NCBI GenBank assembly: GCA_963383645.1
Contig: OY726565.1
Location: 26,250,966 to 26,314,965, forward strand
Origin: Muscardinus avellanarius
Taxonomy: Eukaryota; Chordata; Mammalia; Rodentia; Gliridae
Length of the DNA: 64,000 bases
Direction: 5' to 3'
Part shown: positions 3,335 to 59,212 of the stretch, in pieces
How positions within the stretch are numbered: position 1 is the stretch's first letter
Layout of the letters: the number at the start of each line of letters is the position of its first letter
Position numbers and translations under genes: made by a program
The notes under the pieces: generated by a model
Database searches by the model: none
What the model was told of the DNA's origin: nothing
What the model saw: only the letters and a program-made list of their open reading frames with translations

Positions 3335-3790
3335 GAAGGCATGCTTTTATAGTATCACTTTCTCAATAAATTGATTATGAATGCTTTGTGCTAGCTCATA
3401 TTTATATTATGATTATTTTATATATTTTTTATTTATTATTTTTTTTGTAATCATACATCACTTTGGAATACAAGACTTGAGAGGATATACAAGCACATAT
3501 CATCCAATAAGCCCTCACCCAATCCCCATCCCATTCCCTCCCCCTCCCTCGATCCCATGCGTAATTGGTAATTATCTTTGATATATTTGTTTACACACCT
3601 CATGAGTTTTAAAGAGATTTCATCCTCGCCCATCCCCCTCCCTCTGATTGATCACCTTAATAGCTTCTCAATAGGGCCCTTTCTACTACTCGACCTCCTC
3701 CTGTTACCCCTTTCCTCCTAGTTCTTGCTAATTAGGGGAAATATCTGGATTTTATTTTCTGTGCTACTTCTAGGTGCATGTCACATTGCA

Positions 3791-4906
3791 AGTTCCGATC
3801 CCACTCTTGACGGCCCCAGTAGTGGCCTGACCACTCAGGGAACTCTTAACCCAACCTCGCTGGGTCCAGCACCAGCTTTGCCTCATGGGTGGCCCTGATC
3901 CTGGCCTTGCTGCCCCCCCCCCAGAACTAACCCCTCGGCTGGCTCTGCTCCCAGCCTCAGAGGCCCCAGCATCAGCCTAGCCTCACAACAGGCTCCAATC
4001 CCGGCCTCGCTGACCCTGGTACCGGCCTAACCGCTCGGCAGGCTCCTATCCTGGTCTCGCATGTCCCAGCTCCATCCTTGCCTCACGGCAGTTTCCAATC
4101 CCGGCCTCGCTGGCCCTGGCGCTGGCCTTACCCCTTGGCATAGTCGGATCCCAGCCTCGGAGGTCCCAGCACCAGTCTTGCCTCACGGCAGGCTCCAATC
4201 CCAACCTTGCTGGCCCCGGCACCGGCCTAACCCCTTGGCTGGTGCCGATCCCTGCCTCAGAGGCCTCAGTAGCGGCTTTGTCTCGCAGCAGGCTCCGAAC
4301 CCGACCTGGTTGGCCCCGGCACTGACCTCACCCCTCAGCAGGCTCCAATCCCAGCCTTGGAGGTCACAGCACTGTCCATACCTCAAGGCAGGCTCCAATC
4401 CCAGCCTCGCTGGCCCCGGCACCAGTCTAACCCCTTGGCAGGCTCCTATTCAGGCCTTGGAGGCCCTGGCACCAGCCTTGCCTCACAGCAGGCTCTGATC
4501 CCTGCCTTTATGGCCCTGGCATTGGCCTAACCCCTCCGCAGGCTCCAATCCCGGCCTCTGAGGCCTCAGCACCGGCCTTGCCTTGCAGGAGGCTTTGATC
4601 CCGGCCTCGCTGGCTCCGGCACTGGCCTAACACATCAGCTGGCTCTGATCCCAACCTCGGAGGCCCCAGCACCAGGCTTGTCTCACGGCAGGCTCTGATC
4701 CCAGCCTCGCTGGCCCCAGCACCACCCTAAACCTTTGGCAGGCTCCGAACCTGGCCTCGGAGGCCCCAGCACTGGCCTTGCCTCACGGCATGCTCCGATC
4801 TCAACCTCCCTGGCCCCAGCACCAACCTAATCCCTCGGCAGGCTCCAATTCCAGCCTCGGAGGCCCCATCACCTGCCTTGCCTCACGGGAGGCTCCGATC
4901 CAGCCC
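3791..4906. repeat. Minisatellite: 22 units of exactly 50 bp in 11 alternating 100-bp dimers
   Basis: Units start at 3791, 3841, 3891 and so on to 4891, with no insertion or deletion. Type A contains CCTCGCTGGCC and ends near CTAACCCCTCGGCA. Type B contains CCTCGGAGGCC and ends CTTGCCTCACGGCA. A and B alternate strictly. Units differ by many substitutions. The period is not a multiple of three, so the 145-residue reading frame across it is not a gene. Confidence 0.95.
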
Positions 4907-4971
4907 CCTCTTCACCCAGCAGGTTGTCCCACGTTCCCGAGGGTGCGTGGTAGTAGTATTCTGCCTCTGAG

Positions 4972-5435
4972 GTAATTTCTTCAAAAGTTCCAGGTGTATT
5001 ACATCAGATCTCTGCCTCTCCTGAGTACTTGCCGCTGTCAATGCGGCTGCCTCCACCATTTCAAATCTTTCCCAAGCTCTTTTCCTATACTGCACAATGT
5101 CCAGTGTTCCAAAGCATGCACGACGGTAGCATTTGACCTTTGGGGTAATTTCTTCAGAGGATCAGGGTGGGTTGGATCAGATGTCTGCCTTTCCCAAAGA
5201 CAAGTCTCCACCGCCATCTCGGCCACTGCTGCCGCCACCACCTTCCTCCTAGGTCTCCGCTAGACTCTGTCCTTACAGGTGATGTCCAGGATTCTTAAAG
5301 ATGTAGAGAAGCCTCAGTCCTCCTTTGCGGGGAATTTTCCCAAAAGTTCCAGTTCAGATGTATATGTTTTGTCTGCATCTCAAATATTCTAGCTGCCGCC
5401 TCGGCCATCTTAACCCCTCTCAAATATTTTTATTT
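4972..5435 (-). repeat. Imperfect tandem units (171 and 187 bp, plus partial) in the composite element's 5' part
   Basis: The plus-strand block GGTAATTTCTTC begins units at about 4972 and 5142. A diverged form (GGGGAATTTTCCC) begins the third near 5329. Each unit also carries CATCAGAT or its equivalent, and two carry a GCCATCT motif. This looks like an L1-type monomer array. Confidence 0.7.
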
Positions 5436-5551
5436 TTTCTTTTCCCTTTTTTTCTTTTTTTAAAAAAGAGAAGAGAGTATTGTGGTTTGGGGAGGATGTG
5501 GATTCAGGCACTCAGTAACGATGGAATTTTTTTTTCATTCTGGGTATGTGG

Positions 5552-5722
5552 GGTGGGGGTCGCTTAAGGGTGCCCCGCCCATACCCGCCCACGTGCCTAG
5601 GGTCGGGGCCAGGCGGCCCGGACCTCAGGGTCCTTCCTGGTGGGCAGGGGGTCGCCTAAGGGTGCCCCGGCAGCACGTGCCCATCCGCCCAGGGTCGGGG
5701 CCAGGCGGCCCGGACCTCAGGC
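5552..5722 (-). repeat. Two copies of a 92-bp GC-rich unit at the 5' end of the composite element
   Basis: A 29-bp block containing GGTCGGGGCCAGGCGGCCCG occurs at 5601-5629 and again at 5693-5721, with no difference seen. The flanking parts are similar but diverged (GGGGTCGCxTAAGGGTGCCCCG). Confidence 0.85.
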
Positions 5723-5758
5723 TATATTATGATTATTTTTTAAATAAAAAGCTCTACT

Positions 5759-14381: not shown

Positions 14382-15157
14382 CTTATATATGTATTTTTAT
14401 TGGTGCGTTATAGTCTCACATCATAGTGTAGATAATGTTGACAATTGCATATATTCACGCAGTACTTGTGCCTTTCCATTTCCCTCCCTCTGAATACCAA
14501 GTGTCCAGTATAACAATGTTACATTCACATGTATACACATAGCCACTACCTGTGAGGTAGCATTTCCTCCTCTCCTCCCCTTCTTCCCCGGCTCCACAGA
14601 GGATTTCCTCCATTATCTGGAGTCCCTCTGGTATCCCAAATACTTCCTAGCTCAAGCATATTAGAGAAAAATAGGTTCCTTCTCTTTCAGTGCTTGTCTG
14701 ATCTCACTTAACATAATGTTCTATGGATCTTTCCATTTTCTTATGAATGACATTATTTTGTTATTCTTTATTGTTGAGTAGAATCCCACTGCATGTATTT
14801 CTCATAATTTCCTGTGCTTTGGTGGTCTTGTTGAGGAAGTTACTACCTGTGCCTCTATGTTGGAGTGTTGAGCTTATGCCCCCCTCTAATAGCTTCACAG
14901 TCTCTGGTCTGATTTCTAAGTCTTTGATTCATCTTGAGTTGATTGCTGTGAAGGGTGAGAGGTAAGGATTTAGTTCCATCTTTCTACAAATGGATAGCCG
15001 GTTCTCCCAGAACCATTTGTTGAAAAGGCTGTCTTTTCCTCAGCATATGAATTTGGTCCCTTTGTTGAAGATCAACTGACTACAAGTGTTTGGATTTGTT
15101 TCTATCTTCTATTCTGTTCCATTGGTCTGTGGGCTGTTTTGTGCATATATCATGCCG

Positions 15158-26529: not shown

Positions 26530-27179
26530 CAGAAAAGCAAAATGGATAACGAAACAAGAACCAACAATACACTGGATACAACAGACACATTTTAAGTGTG
26601 AGAACATTGACAGGATAAAAGCAAAAGGATGGGAAACAATCTAAGGGACAAGCAAGTGTGCATGTGGGAGCTCTAATATCAGCCAAAATATCAGACAAAG
26701 TAGCTCTCAAGACAGAGATTACCAGAGATAAGAGGGACACTTCATAACGAAAAAGGGTTGATGCATCTAAGAAAGTAACATGTCTAAATGCATACGCACC
26801 AAATAACAATGCTTTAAAGTATAGAAACAAACCAGAAAGCTTTAAAAGGAGAAAAATAATTCATAGTCACAGTCAAAAACTTGACCATATGGTATTTGTT
26901 AGAGCAGAATACTAAATATCAGCATAGACATGAAATATCTGAGCAGCAGTCAACTGACACCTATGGAACATTACACCCAACAACTGCATAATAAGTGTTC
27001 TTTTACGTGTACACGGATCACATGTCAATGTCAGCCTATCGGGGATACAAAGTATGTCAATGGAATGAAACTAGATTATGTTTTCAAACCACATAGAAGT
27101 AAAACTAATAATAAAAACAAAAATTAGAAAACAACTAAGTATTTAGAAATTAAGCAACATACTTATTTAATATAATTTA

Positions 27180-27250
27180 ATATTTTTAAATATAATTTAA
27201 TATTTTTAATTTTATGATTATTTAATATAATTACAGAAAAAAATAAGTAA
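27180..27250. repeat. AT-rich low-complexity tract
   Basis: Repeated TATAATTTAATATTTTTAA-like units, about 20 bp long. Confidence 0.7.
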
Positions 27251-27366
27251 ATAAATAGAATTAGAAACTATTTGGACAGGAACAATGAAAACAGCCTCAA
27301 ATATGTGTGATGCCATGAATTAGAAAGAGATGGAATACTTCCAGACCCATTCTGTGAAGCCAATGT

Positions 27367-27583
27367 CTTTTTTTTTTTTTTTTTTTGGCGGTACTAGGGA
27401 TGGAACCCAGGGTCATTCTACCTCCGAGCTATACTCCCAGTCCTGTTTTTTTTTTTTTTGAAACCAGGTTTCACTGAGTTGCAAAGGGCCTCACTAAGTA
27501 GCTGAGTCTGTCCATGAACTGTAATCCTCCGGTCTCAGCCTCCCAATGCTGGGATTACAAACCTGTGCCACCACGCCTGGCTT
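27367..27583 (-). repeat. B1-dID SINE
   Basis: Minus-strand dimer with a long poly-T. AAGCCAATGT/AAACCAATGT flank it. Confidence 0.9.
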
Positions 27584-28017
27584 AAACCAATGTTATCTTA
27601 ATACCAAAACAAACAAACAAAAAATAACCAAAGAAAAAAAAACTACAGACCAATATGCTTGATGAGCATGGATGTAAGCATTCTTAATAAAATACTAGAG
27701 ATTTGCACTTAAAACCATATCAAGAAAATTGTGCACCATAAACAAGTAGGTTTCATTCCAGGGATGCAAGGCTGGCTCAACATAGGAAGTAAACAGAACA
27801 ACAGACAAAAAGCACACCATCACCTTAGTAGGTCTAGAAAACGTATGTGGCAAATCCAACACCCATTTATGCTAAAAAAAACTAAAGATTAGAGATAAAA
27901 GGAATTTACCTCAACACTATAAAGGCAATATACAAAACAAAACAAAAATAACAACAACCAAAGCCAATATCATACTGAATGGGGAAAAATGGAAGGAATT
28001 ACCCCACCACCACCACC

Positions 28018-28220
28018 ACCTTTTTGTGGTACTGAGGGTGGAACCCAGGAGTACTCTTTCCCCAAGATATACCCTCAGCCCAATTTTATTTTTATTATGA
28101 AACATAATCTCACCAGTTTGATAAGAGTCTTCACTATTTGCTAAGGCTGTCCTTAAACCTGTAATCCTATCTCAGCCTCCCAAGTACTGGGATTACAGGT
28201 GTGCACCACCAAGTCTAGCA
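28018..28220 (-). repeat. B1-dID SINE
   Basis: Minus-strand dimer after a short (CCA)n run. GGAATT/AGAATTCC remain at the flanks. Confidence 0.86.
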
Positions 28221-28982
28221 AGAATTCCCTTTAAAATCAAGAGGAAGACTATGAGACTCACTATAACCACTAATATTCAATACAGTACTTGAAATTCTAG
28301 CCAGAAAAATAAGGCAAGAGAAGAAAATTAAAAAGATACATGTTGGGAAAGAAATAAAATTATCTATTTACAGATGACATGATTTTATACTTAGAAAATG
28401 CCAAACACTCAACCAGAAACTTTCTAAAGCTGATAAGTAAATTCAGCAAAGTATCTGAATATAAAATAAACTTATGAAGATCATTTTTCTACATACCATC
28501 CAACCATGAATCCACTGCAAAAGAAATCTGGAAAACATGGGAATAAATCTAAACCATGGAAGCAAAAGACCATGAAAATTATAGAACACTAAAGAAGAAA
28601 TTGAAGAAGACCTTAGAAGATCTCCCATGTTTTTGGATAGGCAGAATAAATGTCATAAAAATATCCATACTACCAAAAATATTGGCATTACAGTATTACA
28701 GATTCAATGTAATTCCTATCAAAATACCAAAGCCATTCTTGATAGACCTAGAAAAAGTCCTAAAATTCATGTATAAAAACGAAAGACCCAGAATAATCAA
28801 AGCAATTCTGATCGTCATAGTACCTGAGTTCAAACTGTACTACAGAAAAATAGTAACAAAACAGCACGATACTGGCACAAAAACAGATCAATGGAATAGA
28901 AGATAAAGAAACAAATCCTCACACATATAGCCCTTGATTTTTGTCAAAGGACCCAAAAAGATATGCTAGGAAAAAAACAGCC

Positions 28983-29140
28983 TTAGCTAAGTGTAGTGGT
29001 TTGTGGCTAGCTTTAACAACTTAGTGAGGCCTCTGCAACTTAATGAGATCATGTTTCAAAGTGAATTTTAAAAAATAGGGCTGGGCATGTAGCTTAGAGG
29101 TAGAATGCCCCTAGGTTCAATCCCCAGTGCTACAAAAGAA
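28983..29140 (+). repeat. B1-dID SINE, shortened left arm
   Basis: The right arm is intact (GCTGGGCATGTAGCTTAGAGG ... GGTTCAATCCCCAGTGC), and part of the left arm is deleted. Confidence 0.85.
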
Positions 29141-30943
29141 AAAGAAAAGAAAAATAGTCTCTTTAACAAGTAGTGCTTGGAAAGCTCAATATTCATAGTT
29201 AGAGAATAAAATAGACTCCATTCTCTCACTCTGCACGAGTCAGCTCAAGATGGATCAAGACCTAGAAACTAGACCAGAAATTGTGCCATTACTATGGCAT
29301 AGAACTAACTCTGACATACAGGAACTAGTAGAGACTTCCTTAATGAAATTCCGACACTCATGAATCAAAACAGAATCAATAAAAGGAATGGCGCGTAATT
29401 GAAAGGCTTCAGTGCAGCAAAGGAAACTATCAAGAGTCTGAAGAGGGCCTACAGAATTGTAGATCTTTGCCAGCTACTTCTCTGATAGAGGACAAATACC
29501 TTGTATAATAAAAAAAAAAAAACCAAAAAAAGGCCAATCAAAAACTGGGCAATTGGATTCAATAGACACTTCTTAAGACAAGAATACAAAAGGCCAATAA
29601 ACACATGAAAAAATGAAAAATGTTCAACATCATTAGCAATCAGGGTAATGCAAATAAAAACAACACTGAGACTCCATTTAATCCACTTAGAAGGCAACCA
29701 TCAAGAATACAAACAATAACATGCTGGCGATGATGTGGGGAAACAGGAACACTTATACTGGTGGGATGGCAAATTTATTACAACTGCTATGGAGATCAGT
29801 GTGGAGGTTTCTCAGAAGACTAAGAACGGAACCACCATGTGACCCATCTATACTACTACTCTGCATCTTTACAAAAGAATCAAACTCAGAACACTATAGT
29901 AACATGCATATTCATGTTTATAGTGGCACACTTTACATAAGACAGAGAATGGAACCGGCCTAGGTGTCTGTGAACAAATAACAGATAATAAAAATGTGGT
30001 ATATACACACAATGGGATTTTACCCGGCCATAAAGAACAACACAAGTATGTCATTTTCAGGAAAATAAATGGAACTAGAGAATATGATGCTAAGTGAGAC
30101 CAGTCAGGAAGTCAAGGGTTGAATGTTTTTTCTCACATGGGAAACGAGAGAGAAATCAGGAAACAAAGGAGCTATAGATAATCGAGGAGGATGACCAGTG
30201 GCATAGCAGAAGGGGCTGGGAGAGGGGGTGGGGCTGGGAAAAGGGAGAGCTGATGAAAGGACCGGTCCCAGTAACGCTGTGCCCATGTATGAAGGCGACA
30301 CGGACATTCCCGCTGTTAGGCACGGGCAGGGCTGTGTAGTGGGGAGGCACTGAAGGGAAGGCCACCAGGACCTATGTGCATTTGTATGAACTGGAACCTC
30401 ACTAAGATGTTTAGTTACAATGCACCAATAAAAGCATAGACAAATATATGGGAGGCGGCTACAACAGTGCCTAAAGTGTACAGTTGTAAGCATGTATTAA
30501 AAAGGAAAGAAAGGTAAGAAAATCAGAGATCTAGGTTTTCATCTCAAGAAACTAAAAAGGAGCCAATTAAAAATAAAGAAAATAAGAGCAAAAAATACCT
30601 GAAGTTTCTCTCAGTCTTAGATATTTTTAGTTCTATTAGTAATACATGGTATTTTTCAGATATGGAAGAGTAAACATCAATTACTAAAACCTATCAAGTA
30701 GAAAAAAGAATAAAGTACTTACAAATAATGCTAAACAAAGAGGTAAAAAATTTATAGAGTAAAAATGACAAAAATTGCTGAAAGAAGTTAAAAACATAAA
30801 TAAATTAAACATCTCATATTTATAGACTGGAAGAACTAATATTAAGATGTCAATTCTACCCAAAGTGATCTATAGATTCAATGCAATCCCTATTAAAATC
30901 CCCAAAACTGTTTTTCAGAAATAGACCGATACATTTTAAAATT

Positions 30944-47539: not shown

Positions 47540-49080
47540 AGAAGCCGCCCTCCGGGTCTGGCTCCACTCTCGGGCCGGCCAGAGCCCGGTCCCTGCAAAC
47601 CACCTGTGCTATGTCCTTGGCCCCAACCTCGGGACGGCACAGCCCCGGGCGGGCTCCTTCCCCGGGGGCCCCACGCCCTCCCACCCCCGTCACCCCCGGA
47701 GCCCGCCGAGGCTGCGGAGCGCGTGCGGGGAACTGAGCACTCCGAGGCGCAGCCGGCGCTCCCGCCCGGGGCCCCGGGGCGGGCGGCGCTCACTACCTCC
47801 TGGAAGAGCTCCAGACTGTAGGTGTTGTCGTCGTCGGCGAAGAAGAGCACGCCGGGCTGGGCGCGCTGGTGCTGGTGGCGCTGGCGCAGCCAGGCCAGGC
47901 CGGCGTTGCGCTGCTCGGTGGCGCGCGGCAGCCCGGGCCGCTTGTAGCGCCGCGGCGTGGGCACGTGCAGGTGCGTGCAGGGCAGCCCGGCCCGCGCCAC
48001 GAAGCGGCTCACCAGCTCGCTGCGCGCCGCCGCGTCCTCCACCAGGATCCAGTGCAGCTGCGCCACCTGGCGGAGCGTGTTGGCCAGGCGCGTGAGCTCG
48101 GCTTTCTGCACCGGGCGGCTGTAGGTGGGCGTGATGGCATAGATGGTGGGCAGCGGCTCGGGCGGCGGCGGCGGCGGCCGGGACGCGCTGCGCTTCTGGG
48201 CGCCGCGGCGGGGCGGGAGCCGGACGCCCCCGCGGCCCCCGGGGTGGGGAGCGAAGTCGGGGCGCGGGGTGAGCGGGGGCGCCGGCCCGCGCGTGTCCAC
48301 GTCGAGCATGAGGATGACGATGAGGATCCAGGGCAGGAGGATGAAGACGCGGTGGAACAGCGCGGACTTCATGGCGCGCCCCGGGGCGCGGGCGCCGGCG
48401 GGAGCCGGACCCCAGGGCGCGTGGTGCGCGGCGGCGGCGCTCAGCGGGCGGCGGCCCGCGCGCTCTCCATCGGGCACCCGGCGCGCTCGGCTCCGGAACT
48501 TCGGGCGCCCTTGGGGTGGCGCCCGCCGGGCTCGGCGGCCTCCCCGGCCGCGCTCCCGCCCGCGCGGCGCCCCAGCTCGCGCCCGCGCCGCCGCGGAAGC
48601 CTGCGCGCCGGCCCCTCGCTCTTTTCTTCTCAGAACCTCTCCGGGTTCCCGCAGCCAGACCCCAAGGCAAGCAAGCAAGCAAGCAAGCGGAACCGGGGGC
48701 CGGGGGCGGCAGACGCCCGCGCCCCAGCGCTCCCGGGGCGGCGGCGGGTCCCGGCCCGGACCTGCGGAGTGCGGACGCGCTCCTCCGACCCCCGCGCGCT
48801 CCGCTCGCCCAATACTGCAGGGTCCTCGGGGATCAGCAGAAAATCCGTGCACGTGCGGAAAACTCCGGAGACCGGAGGAGAGTAAGAGGAGCGCGGGGGA
48901 GGGAGGGCAGGCCCGGGGCTGGGCTCCAGCTGCGAGGCCGACGTGCGGAGCCGCAGCGGCCGGGACGCGCTCGCCGAGAGCAGAAGTCGGCGAAAGCCCG
49001 CGAGCCGGGGCGCCGCGCCGGCGAGGAGGCGAGGGGGTGGGCGCCGCCGGCTCTGCCCCCGGCCTCAGCCTCGCGGGGAG
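47540..49080. promoter_or_regulatory. CpG island spanning the B3GAT2 promoter, 5'UTR, exon 1 and start of intron 1
   Basis: G+C content and CpG density rise sharply here and fall away on both sides. The island covers exon 1 and the presumed minus-strand transcription start, which should lie between about 48400 and 49080. I see no TATA box in that interval, which fits a dispersed CpG-island promoter. A (AAGC)n tetranucleotide run at 48666-48689 lies in the presumed 5'UTR/promoter. The edges are estimates. The high GC content also removes stop codons, so several long reading frames here are shadows. Confidence 0.85.
47797..48372 (-). CDS. B3GAT2: B3GAT2 coding exon 1 (galactosylgalactosylxylosylprotein 3-beta-glucuronosyltransferase 2, GlcAT-S)
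   Basis: This exon encodes residues 1-192 of a GT43 glucuronyltransferase. The family moves glucuronic acid from UDP-GlcA to a terminal galactose in the Golgi, on the way to the HNK-1 carbohydrate epitope. The start MKSALF is followed by a signal-anchor at about residues 8-24 (VFILLPWILIVILML), as in a type II membrane protein. Then come a proline-rich stem (27-75, with six prolines at 66-71) and the start of the catalytic domain (PTIYAITPTYSRP from residue 75). The Mn/UDP-binding DDD triad is at 180-182 in FFADDDNTYS. I chose this ATG because it puts the anchor at the N terminus; the context is GCC ATG A, with G at -3. The exon ends after CAG GAG in phase 0 and is followed by a GT donor at 47796-47795. 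It sits inside a CpG island. The frame stays open for 261 codons upstream (see findings). Confidence 0.97.
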
Positions 49081-56312: not shown

Positions 56313-57112
56313 ACTTCCGGGAAGATGGCGACCGAGAAAAGCGGGGCTTAAGAGCCCCGCTAACAACGAATCTCCATTACCACAAAATCAGTGCCTTTCA
56401 AAGCCAGAAAACAACATCACCAGAGAAACAAAAAAAATCACCAGGCTCCAGAGAGAAAGCGGACTGAGAACAGAGCCACAGAGGAGATCCTCACGCCCAA
56501 GGACGCGGCTTCACGCCCGAGGACGCGGCAGCAGTGCCATACTGCTGGCGGCAGCGGCGAATTCACGGAACGGCCACAGCAAGCAGAGGGGAGCCGCTGC
56601 TGAAAAGCATGCGGGATTTCTCGGCGCAGAGGGCATCTAAAGCTCCCAGTGGCTGAGCTCAGCACACGCTGCAGGGATTCAGAGTGGAAATCAAAACCAA
56701 GAAAAAAAAAAACGCCAGCCCCATAGCCGAGGGCGTAGCAGCGGCGCCATATTGCCACCGGCGGCAACAGCACCGAATTCACCGAATTCAGTACAGCTAC
56801 ATCTGCGTACTCAAGAACAGTGAGTCAAATTGTGGGCCACAGCGGAGAAATCCCAGTACTGTACTCACTGGGACTTGACCCAGTGGGAGAGGGGCAGTGG
56901 CAGTGATATCACACCATAGGAGAACGTGTAACCTGGCACCCCCCACAGTCTAAAGCAGCCTCTATCGACTCTCTGGGTCGGAGACTCTGTGATACAACCC
57001 AGTAAAGGAGTAGTGGGGTCTGAGATACTACTGACTCGAGATCCAGAGCACCTTAAGTGAAGTCATAGTGACCCAAGGGAAGAACCCAGAGAAGGCACAA
57101 ACTTCCGAAATC

Positions 57113-57997
57113 ATGGGAAAGAGGAATAATACTGGAGCAATGAATGCTCACAACCCCACAACATCAGAACCCGATAAAACAGAAAATCAGAGATTTCTAG
57201 AAGATCAAATCAGGAAAACAACTGTAGAAATAATAGAGGTGCTTTGAAAAGAACTCAGAGAGAGCCAAAAAGAGATAAAGGATGCAATTAATGAAGTAAA
57301 GGCCTCAATTCAAAGCACAAACAACCGATTAGACCACATGGAGAACAGAATCTCGCTTTTAGAAGATGATCATTCCAAAAATGAACGCATAGTTTCTAAT
57401 CTAGGAAAAAATATCTGACAGCAGGAATCTGATATTGAAGAAATATGGGCCCATTTTAAGAGAGCTAACCTAAGAATAATTGGAATAGAGGAGGGAAAAG
57501 AAAGTGAAACCAAAGGGATTAACAATCTCTTCAAAGAAGTAATAGCAGAAAATTTTCCAGACATAGAGCAAGAGGTCGATACGCAGGTCCAGGAAACTTA
57601 TAGAACTCCCTTTAGACAGGATCGGAGAAGAGGATCCCCACGCCACATAATTGTCAAAATGACCAATGTGGAAGCCGAGCAGAGAATCTTAAAGGCAACA
57701 AAAGCAAAGGGCCAAGTGACATTCAGAGGCAAACCAATTAGAATCACTCCAGACTTCCCAAACCAAGTCATGAGAGCCAGAAGGGCTTGGAGTAACATAT
57801 TCCAAACTCTGAAAGAAAACAACTTCCAGCCAAAAATTTCCTACCCAGCAAAACTTTCTATCAAATTAGATGGAGAAATAAGAAGCTTCCATGACAAACA
57901 GAAACTGAAGGAATTTATGTCTTCAAAACCAGCACTAGAGAAAATACTCAAAGAGATTAACTATAAAGAAGAAATAGGTAACACAAATCAGAACTAG
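57113..57997 (+). pseudogene. L1 ORF1-like open frame with two in-frame stops
   Basis: From ATG 57113 to TAG 57995-57997 there are 294 codons in one frame, broken only by TGA at 57245-57247 and at 57416-57418. The N-terminal part is a predicted coiled coil (about 57190-57420). The intact C-terminal part, from about 57620, carries ORF1p RRM/CTD hallmarks: SPRHIIVKM, KGQVTFRGKPIRITPDF and ISYPAKLSIKLDGEI. The family makes a trimeric RNA-binding chaperone for retrotransposition. At 294 codons it is shorter than the human protein (338). Both stops could be CGA-to-TGA changes, which is an inference. Confidence 0.85.
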
Positions 57998-58129
57998 AGA
58001 AACAAGATTTTCCATCCAACAGACAACTAAGATTGGTTATCTGTGGAGATTCATTACTTATGTTAGTCTTTTACCTATCCGTAAAGGGTATTGTTTACCT
58101 TTATTGTTGTTAATTTTTAGGATTTCTAG

Positions 58130-58740
58130 TTGGAATATTAATATACCTTCAGATATAGCATTTGGAAATATTTTATCCCATTCTATTAGTAACTGTTAAC
58201 TCTGTTTACATTGTCTTTGGATATACAATATGTTTTTTATTTTTTAGGGAGTTTGTATACTCTTCTGTTGCCTGTGCCATTGAAATCATAACCAAGGAAT
58301 CACTGCCAATTTCAATGTTGTGAGGTTTTATGACCCAGATTTTCTCCTAAAAGTTTATAGTCTTAAGATTTATATTTAGGTCTTTTATCTATTTTGAGTT
58401 AATATTTGTATATGGGATTAGGTAAGGGTCCAATTTTATTCTTTTCCATGTAATTATTATTTTTTTAACAATATTTAGTTAAAAGATTATTATTTCCACC
58501 ACCAAATGTTCGTGGAAACCTTGTCAAAAATAACTTGACAAGATAGGGAAGAATTTAGGTCTAGGCTTTTATTTAACTCCAATGGTTTATATATCTGCCT
58601 TTAGAATAGTACTACACTGTTTCAATTATTGTAGCTTTATATGGTTTGAAATCAGAAAATATACATCTTCTAGCTTTGTTTTTTTTCAAGATCGTTGTGG
58701 ATACCTAGAGTCCATATTCCATATTAGGATAGATTTTTTT
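58130..58740 (-). mobile_element. Antisense L1 ORF2 segment inside the half-LINE
   Basis: The plus strand reads as the complement of ORF2 C-terminal sequence, for example TTATCTATTTTGAGTTAATA and GTAGCTTTATATGGTTTGAA. It lies opposite to the surrounding element. Confidence 0.7.
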
Positions 58741-59120
58741 TCTGAAAAATAAATATATAAATATATGATAGTTTCACCTAAAAAATAGAAAAAATAGATT
58801 CTCTGGTAAGAAAGAAAGCAAAAAGAAATATTGAAATGTTATCTTTAAGTCATCAAAAGCTTGGTATCAGACAAATGAAACTGTTATGTGAGATTATCAT
58901 TTTTAATTTTTGATAAATTGCTATAATACTAGATGTCAACTACTAAGCCAAGCATGGGAGGGAGGGATAGGGAGAGAATGGGGTGGGGATCGGGTGGGGG
59001 CTGACTGGGCAATGTGTGCATGTATGTCTACAAAAGTATGTATCCCACTATGATGTATGAGTACAGTGCACCAATTAAAAAGAAACAAAAAACAAAAAAA
59101 AAAAACAAAAAAATAAAAAT

Positions 59121-59212
59121 AAAAAATAAAATAGGGCTGGGGGTGTAGCTCAAAGGTAAAGTGCCCCTGAGTTCAATCTCCAGCACCGTGTGTGCATGCT
59201 TGCACGTGTGCA

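Follow-up and report, generated by a model that had tools for sequence, protein, structure and literature searches.

A candidate VNTR composite retrotransposon family, SVA/LAVA-like in plan, in a rodent genome

Composite retrotransposons built around a variable number of tandem repeats (VNTR) are called specific to hominoid primates in the available parts of two published accounts (PMC4432496, PMC7353768), the first of which also describes a shared CT-hexamer/Alu-like 5' region and, for LAVA, a 3' part that includes an L1ME fragment. Two further groups of L1 derivatives resemble the element described here. HAL1 is presented in the accessible text of PMC5753468 as an ORF2-less L1 derivative with several origins in mammals, and SpIREs are characterized in the corresponding portion of PMC5860796 as intra-5'UTR or 5'UTR/ORF1 splicing products that are generally dead ends.

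The window analyzed here, a stretch of 64,000 nucleotides, contains a composite insertion whose parts are listed in Table 1. Read in the sense direction, it displays M1, an A/T-rich spacer, M2, the VNTR, a 3' module (M4 and M5) and an A-rich tail. The preliminary description had reported GC-rich 92-bp units, units bearing a YY1 motif, an 11-copy dimeric VNTR, an L1-3'UTR-like end and an A-rich tail, and all of these were recovered, the 92-bp units as 1.9 copies at 84%, the YY1-motif units as three degenerate units of ~160-190 bp each, the VNTR as 50+50-bp dimers, and the L1-like end through homology to sequence located 3' of ORF2 in other loci. The number of M1 units is higher in some other genomic copies. 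Within M2, the YY1-like motif reads AAGATGGC in the first unit and GAGATGGC in the second, and it is degenerate in the third. The VNTR has a GC content of 65%, and its units, cut at fixed length, show identities of 0.746 (A-A), 0.700 (B-B) and 0.632 (A-B). A reading frame through the VNTR gave 214 candidates in the protein collection, none with E <= 0.001, and the VNTR pattern found five loci in the bacterial and viral collections, with matches to the window of at most 25 bp. Other scans of viral contigs returned no match, and neither did the Rfam and tRNA searches.

Table 1. Parts of the composite insertion and of the HAL1-like element in the window
Feature	Position	Strand	Basis or remark
Whole composite element with flanking duplications	3403-5739	-	One insertion
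Target-site duplication, 5' copy	5723-5739		17/17 against 3403-3419
M1: GC-rich 92-bp units, ~1.9 copies, element's 5' end	5548-5722	-	TRF (5548-5721) and own-genome matches
A/T-rich spacer between GC-rich units and YY1 block	5435-5547	-	Sequence; matched elsewhere within the M1 query
M2: YY1 block, three degenerate units whose starts are YY1-like (AAGATGGC type)	4922-5434	-	Self-comparison and alignment
M3: VNTR, 11 AB dimers (50+50 bp) with degenerate ends	~3774-4921	-	Extent of self-similarity, about 3774-4921
Junction of VNTR and L1-derived 3' module	3764-3803, exact base within range	-	L1 alignments start here
M4: last ~15 codons of L1 ORF2 and first part of L1 3'UTR	3560-3773	-	ORF2 stop equivalent at 3718-3720, from alignment
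M5: end of L1 3'UTR, including a G-rich tract (3512-3556) and the terminal GATGTATGATTACA	3436-3559	-	
A-rich tail, continuing the A-rich end of M5	3420-3435	-	Tails of this kind also seen in other copies
Target-site duplication, 3' copy	3403-3419		17/17 against 5723-5739
HAL1-like element: 5'UTR, broken ORF1, L1 3' end, no sense ORF2	56313-59127	+	

A target-site duplication of 17 bp without mismatch, TATATTATGATTATTTT, flanks the insertion, its copies lying 2303 bp apart as had been claimed. This sequence occurs in the window at these two places and nowhere else, and among 2000 Markov-shuffled flank pairs the longest duplication was 14 bp, short of the 17 bp observed. Exact direct-repeat pairs of at least 15 bp, 500-7000 bp apart, number 45 in the window including the TATATTATGATTATTTT pair, and the remaining ones, judged by eye, are mostly pieces of SINEs, VNTRs or simple repeats. 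The nick site had been given as TTTA/AAAA. TT/AAAA is the better reading, with the exact base set by where the tail ends. Searching the window with the rejoined empty site returned the self-match alone and no paralogous empty site. The copy is located downstream of exon 1 of the B3GAT2 gene (47797-48372, minus strand) and shares its orientation, probably placing it in the first intron.

Compared with SVA, LAVA, PVA and FVA as they are portrayed in the available parts of published descriptions, the composite shares the plan of a non-autonomous element with a repeat-rich 5' part, a separate 3' module and a target-site duplication, and presumably also the dependence on L1. A central GC-rich VNTR is likewise common to both, with units of 30-50 bp in the primate elements and of 50+50 bp at 65% GC here. 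This likeness is one of plan, taken from those descriptions rather than from sequence comparison. The composite differs in that its VNTR is built of AB dimers, its 3' module corresponds to an L1 3' end and its host is a rodent. The CT-hexamer repeat was sought as CCCTCT, which is found zero times in the sense strand of the composite and three times singly in the other, with no tandem pair in either. BLAST of the composite against the window (E <= 1e-3) identified no Alu/B1-like region in it; outside the element it matched only the 3' ends of two L1-type sequences and, over 21 bp, an A/T-rich stretch. The window itself holds many SINE copies that we take to be B1-like (40 junction-spanning matches). 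With a VNTR present and both CT hexamers and an Alu-like part absent, the composite is thus SVA/LAVA-like in plan and not a member of that group. Among rodent L1s, the A, F and Tf types of mouse carry tandem 5'UTR monomers, and the composite resembles such L1s in starting inside repeated GC-rich, promoter-like units, yet it has no ORFs and carries a second, different VNTR downstream. Among the open-licence papers listed in literature searches, no title or abstract opening shows a rodent VNTR composite, and a repeat-library consensus possibly exists, unpublished or under another name.

The composite is present in many copies in the same genome (2.497 Gb, 104 contigs). Using as M1 query the 92-bp units together with the A/T-rich spacer, first-look searches gave 1579 candidates for M1, 2073 for M5 and 4560 for M2, figures that are candidate counts and not measured copy numbers. 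For each of these modules, 40 of 40 scored candidates matched, the window copy being among each 40, and the 39 non-self M2 matches lie at 92-94%. The best 20 of 39 non-self M1 matches and the best 8 of 39 non-self M5 matches were fetched; these are the copies closest to the window copy, and divergent relatives are under-sampled among them. M1, M2, the VNTR, M4 and M5 are all present, in order, in 19 of the 20 fetched M1 copies. In the remaining one (L016), which has no convincing duplication, M4 and M5 are absent and an A-run (about 2455-2480) lies inside or just after the VNTR, perhaps reflecting premature polyadenylation. In addition, M2 is missing its first part in L030, inserts are present in L028 and L032, and the flanks of L017 and L020 hold two further, more divergent copies with VNTR matches of ~1.5 and 1.8 kb. 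All eight fetched M5 copies have the VNTR directly upstream of M5, four of them continuing into M2 and M1 and four starting inside the VNTR. No sense ORF of at least 200 aa was detected inside the element in the 20 M1 copies, nor one of at least 150 aa in the 8 M5 copies, and antisense frames overlapping L033 (206 aa) and L038 (164 aa) fall in repeat parts. By this ORF scan, a reverse transcriptase of its own is absent from the 28 fetched copies, none of which (0/20 and 0/8) has ORFs between the VNTR and the 3' module.

The copies also bear the marks of separate insertions. A target-site duplication scoring at least 12 was found for 14 of the 20 M1 copies, every one different, while 0 of 380 mismatched flank-pair controls reached that score. 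In these 14 copies, no more than 2 bp separate the end of the 5' duplication from the M1 match, and a tail of up to ~65 bp lies between the M5 match and the 3' duplication. Duplications of the same score accompany 4 of the 8 M5 copies, for which the 3' flank is mostly only ~86 bp; no convincing duplication was seen in 6 of the 20 M1 and 4 of the 8 M5 copies. Among the four copies starting inside the VNTR, L037 alone has a duplication, so that true 5' truncation is shown for one. TTAAAA occurs within one mismatch at 11 of the 14 sites when the best-fitting of up to five offsets is chosen, a count given without a null. The 5' starts of the 14 copies with duplications and of the window copy are concentrated within a single portion of the 92-bp unit (n = 15; Rayleigh R 0.63, Monte Carlo p 0.0017), which may be read as promoter start sites within these units. 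Like SVA-type elements, the composite is thus a multi-copy family with individual target-site duplications (14/20 and 4/8). The preliminary description had weighed a composite family against one L1 copy that lost its ORFs, and the former stands: the element is no single genomic copy, and its module order is common to many.

The VNTR array appears to have been transmitted with the rest of the element. Its span varies from 0.6 to 1.25 kb across the 20 copies. In five copies chosen for similar VNTR length, dimers compared in register with those of the window copy show identities of 0.79-0.96, and neighboring dimers within the window copy average 0.73; as in-register dimers are closer than neighbors, the array already belonged to the source element and was inherited from it. 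Compared pairwise at non-CpG positions, the copies diverge by 5.7% for M2 (16 copies and the window copy, 4 of the 20 left out) and by 7.9% for M4 and M5 together (18 copies and the window copy, 2 of the 20 left out), which would fit a burst of copies some millions of years ago.

Alignments identify the 3' module as the final ~15 codons of an L1 ORF2 followed by L1 3'UTR. One L1 (L019) has an ORF2 matching human ORF2p (E 5.5e-18, stops read as X), and its sequence 3' of ORF2 is homologous to window positions 3783-3420 with a score of 241 (null maximum 82 of 300) and, for the upstream part alone, of 86 (null maximum 53 of 1000). A second such L1 (L038), with its ORF2 end inverted, is 64% identical to M4 and 74% to M5, and its ORF2 end is 79% identical to that of L050. 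L1s with an open ORF1 and an open ORF2 start occur at three places in the genome (L046, L047 and L049), with open ORF2 ends at the expected distance (L050, L051 and L052); these are paired as single elements by assumption, the middle of ORF2 lying outside the fetched stretches. The ORF2 ends and first 3'UTR bases of the open-frame L1s match M4, with a score of 74 for L050 (null maximum 56 of 1000), and the last 140-150 bp of these L1s are 71-73% identical to M5. Between the M4-like and M5-like parts lie ~770 bp in the open-frame L1s and ~100 bp in L019. Much of the ~770 bp is an antisense ORF2-like stretch common to the open-frame L1s and a HAL1-like family, and since the composite and L019 are without it, the composite's 3' end would derive from an L1 form without this stretch. 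Compared with two old L1s of the window alone, the 3' module matches weakly, with 28 and 11 of 300 shuffles reaching the score for its upstream half and 9 and 6 of 300 for its downstream half, and the L1 origin was settled only with L019, L038 and L050. These old L1 copies, at 26700-30440 (plus strand) and 14385-15100 (minus strand), retain ORF2 remains, and both display a 3' terminus of the same GATGT..TA.AA.GCACCAATAAAA type.

The 5'UTRs of the open-frame L1s have a GC-rich tandem repeat of their own, with 22/45/62-bp periods (L046 554-921, L047 403-918), which differs from the composite VNTR, and they gave no BLAST match to M1, M2 or the VNTR. M1 and the VNTR were also considered as copies of the present L1 5'UTR and rejected, as sensitive-alignment scores fell below the null maximum. 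M2 scored 62 against these 5'UTRs, with a maximum of 61 in 60 shuffles, and in other comparisons shuffled sequences attained its score 11 and 5 times in 300; the resemblance is borderline, and M2 may have a distant origin in an L1 5'UTR. The pairs L046/L050 and L049/L052 lie on different contigs and show no difference over the 2.4 kb and 1.5 kb compared, which suggests that the open-frame L1s were recently active.

The HAL1-like element of the window (Table 1) has a broken ORF1 at 57113-57997, an open piece of which matches Transposase_22 (E 2e-26), and its antisense ORF2-like stretch matches LINE-1 ORF2 structures in the PDB (E 5e-8 to 2e-7, stops read as X). When its flanks are rejoined, the empty site proves to be a SINE, and 40 matches span the junction. 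Relatives at ~93% were found in L023, L026, L030 and L048, with L023 and L030 cut by the ends of their fetched stretches; L026 has a broken ORF1, the other three an open one. In the open-frame L1s, the antisense ORF2-like stretch was seen in the 3'UTR of L050 (1035-1800), L051 and L052, and over its full length their 3' part shares 89% identity with the corresponding part of the HAL1-like element in the window.

The element is very probably a multi-copy, non-autonomous VNTR composite retrotransposon whose RNA would be reverse-transcribed in trans by L1 proteins. Pol II transcription would start inside the GC-rich 92-bp units, as the starts of the copies suggest, and the RNA would continue across the YY1 block, then the VNTR, and terminate in the L1 3' end. 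The VNTR would have been joined to that end ~15 codons before the ORF2 stop, at a junction that presumably arose once. L1 proteins acting in trans would then nick TT/AAAA sites and reverse-transcribe the RNA by target-primed reverse transcription. Such insertion would account for the target-site duplications and the A-rich tails, as well as for some copies starting inside the VNTR. The TT/AAAA-like sites, the tails, the L1 3' end and the presence of open-frame L1s are consistent with such mobilization in trans; this, the promoter activity and the single origin of the founding junction are read from sequence features.

Alternatively, the copies could be internally deleted or spliced, SpIRE-like products of a full-length L1 with this 5'UTR, each formed anew from RNA that carries the ORFs and each a dead end. 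SpIREs are a known class (available part of PMC5860796), the 3' module starts inside the ORF2 end as a deletion or splice would leave it, and M2 shows its borderline resemblance to L1 5'UTRs. However, ORFs between the VNTR and M4 are lacking throughout the fetched copies, and the 5'UTR of the open-frame L1s, with its other repeat, has no BLAST match to M1-M3, making this explanation improbable. Moreover, known SpIREs keep ORF2. They resemble the composite as L1-derived insertions with an internal part missing, whereas the composite is a fixed architecture in many copies in which ORF2 is not kept. An internal deletion or splice of an L1 may nevertheless have taken place once, at the founding of the family.

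It is more doubtful still that the composite is a HAL1-type half-L1 that lost ORF1. The same genome does hold a HAL1-like, ORF1-only family, the 3' end of which matches M5 better than any other sequence in the window outside the composite, and HAL1 is, like the composite, an ORF2-less L1 derivative. Yet the antisense ORF2-like stretch shared by the HAL1-like copy and the open-frame L1s is absent from the composite, and the HAL1-like 5'UTR has no match to M1, M2 or the VNTR. HAL1 also keeps ORF1, whereas the composite lacks ORFs and contains a VNTR, and the HAL1-like ORF1 matches in the fetched loci lie in other places, none within a composite. A satellite, a segmental duplication or growth of tandem repeats within one dead L1 after its insertion would draw on the proneness of tandem repeats to expand and on the differing VNTR lengths of the 20 copies, but different target-site duplications on many contigs and the same order of VNTR units, in register in the five copies compared, speak against it; with copies dispersed and separately flanked, this explanation is refuted, and we give it almost no credence.

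The preliminary description had the composite arise in squirrels. A rodent host agrees with the dimeric SINEs of the window, which we take to be of the B1-ID type, and with the ORF1 of the HAL1-like element, whose closest named relatives are squirrel sequences. The SINEs would suit a sciuromorph resembling a dormouse, a placement offered as a guess. The attribution to squirrels did not hold, as the product of B3GAT2 exon 1 is 85.8% identical to that of Ictidomys and equally 85.8% to that of Papio (baboon). A squirrel host was also considered from L1 ORF1 and rejected, the best match of a Spermophilus dauricus ORF1 in this genome reaching 52% among 122 matches listed of 58356 candidates.

We lean, with some reserve, towards the view that the VNTR-composite plan, with GC-rich units resembling a promoter, a GC-rich VNTR and an L1 3' end, evolved independently in a rodent and spread there, probably to thousands of copies. 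If so, the architecture itself, and not a sequence peculiar to primates, the Alu-like domain for example, would be what the L1 machinery and host silencing select. In the same genome, the open-frame L1s would be the likely helper and the HAL1-like family a second dependant. A second, unrelated origin would turn questions resting on one data point into comparative ones, among them the role of the VNTR in mobilization, its attraction of zinc-finger repression and the need for an Alu-like domain.
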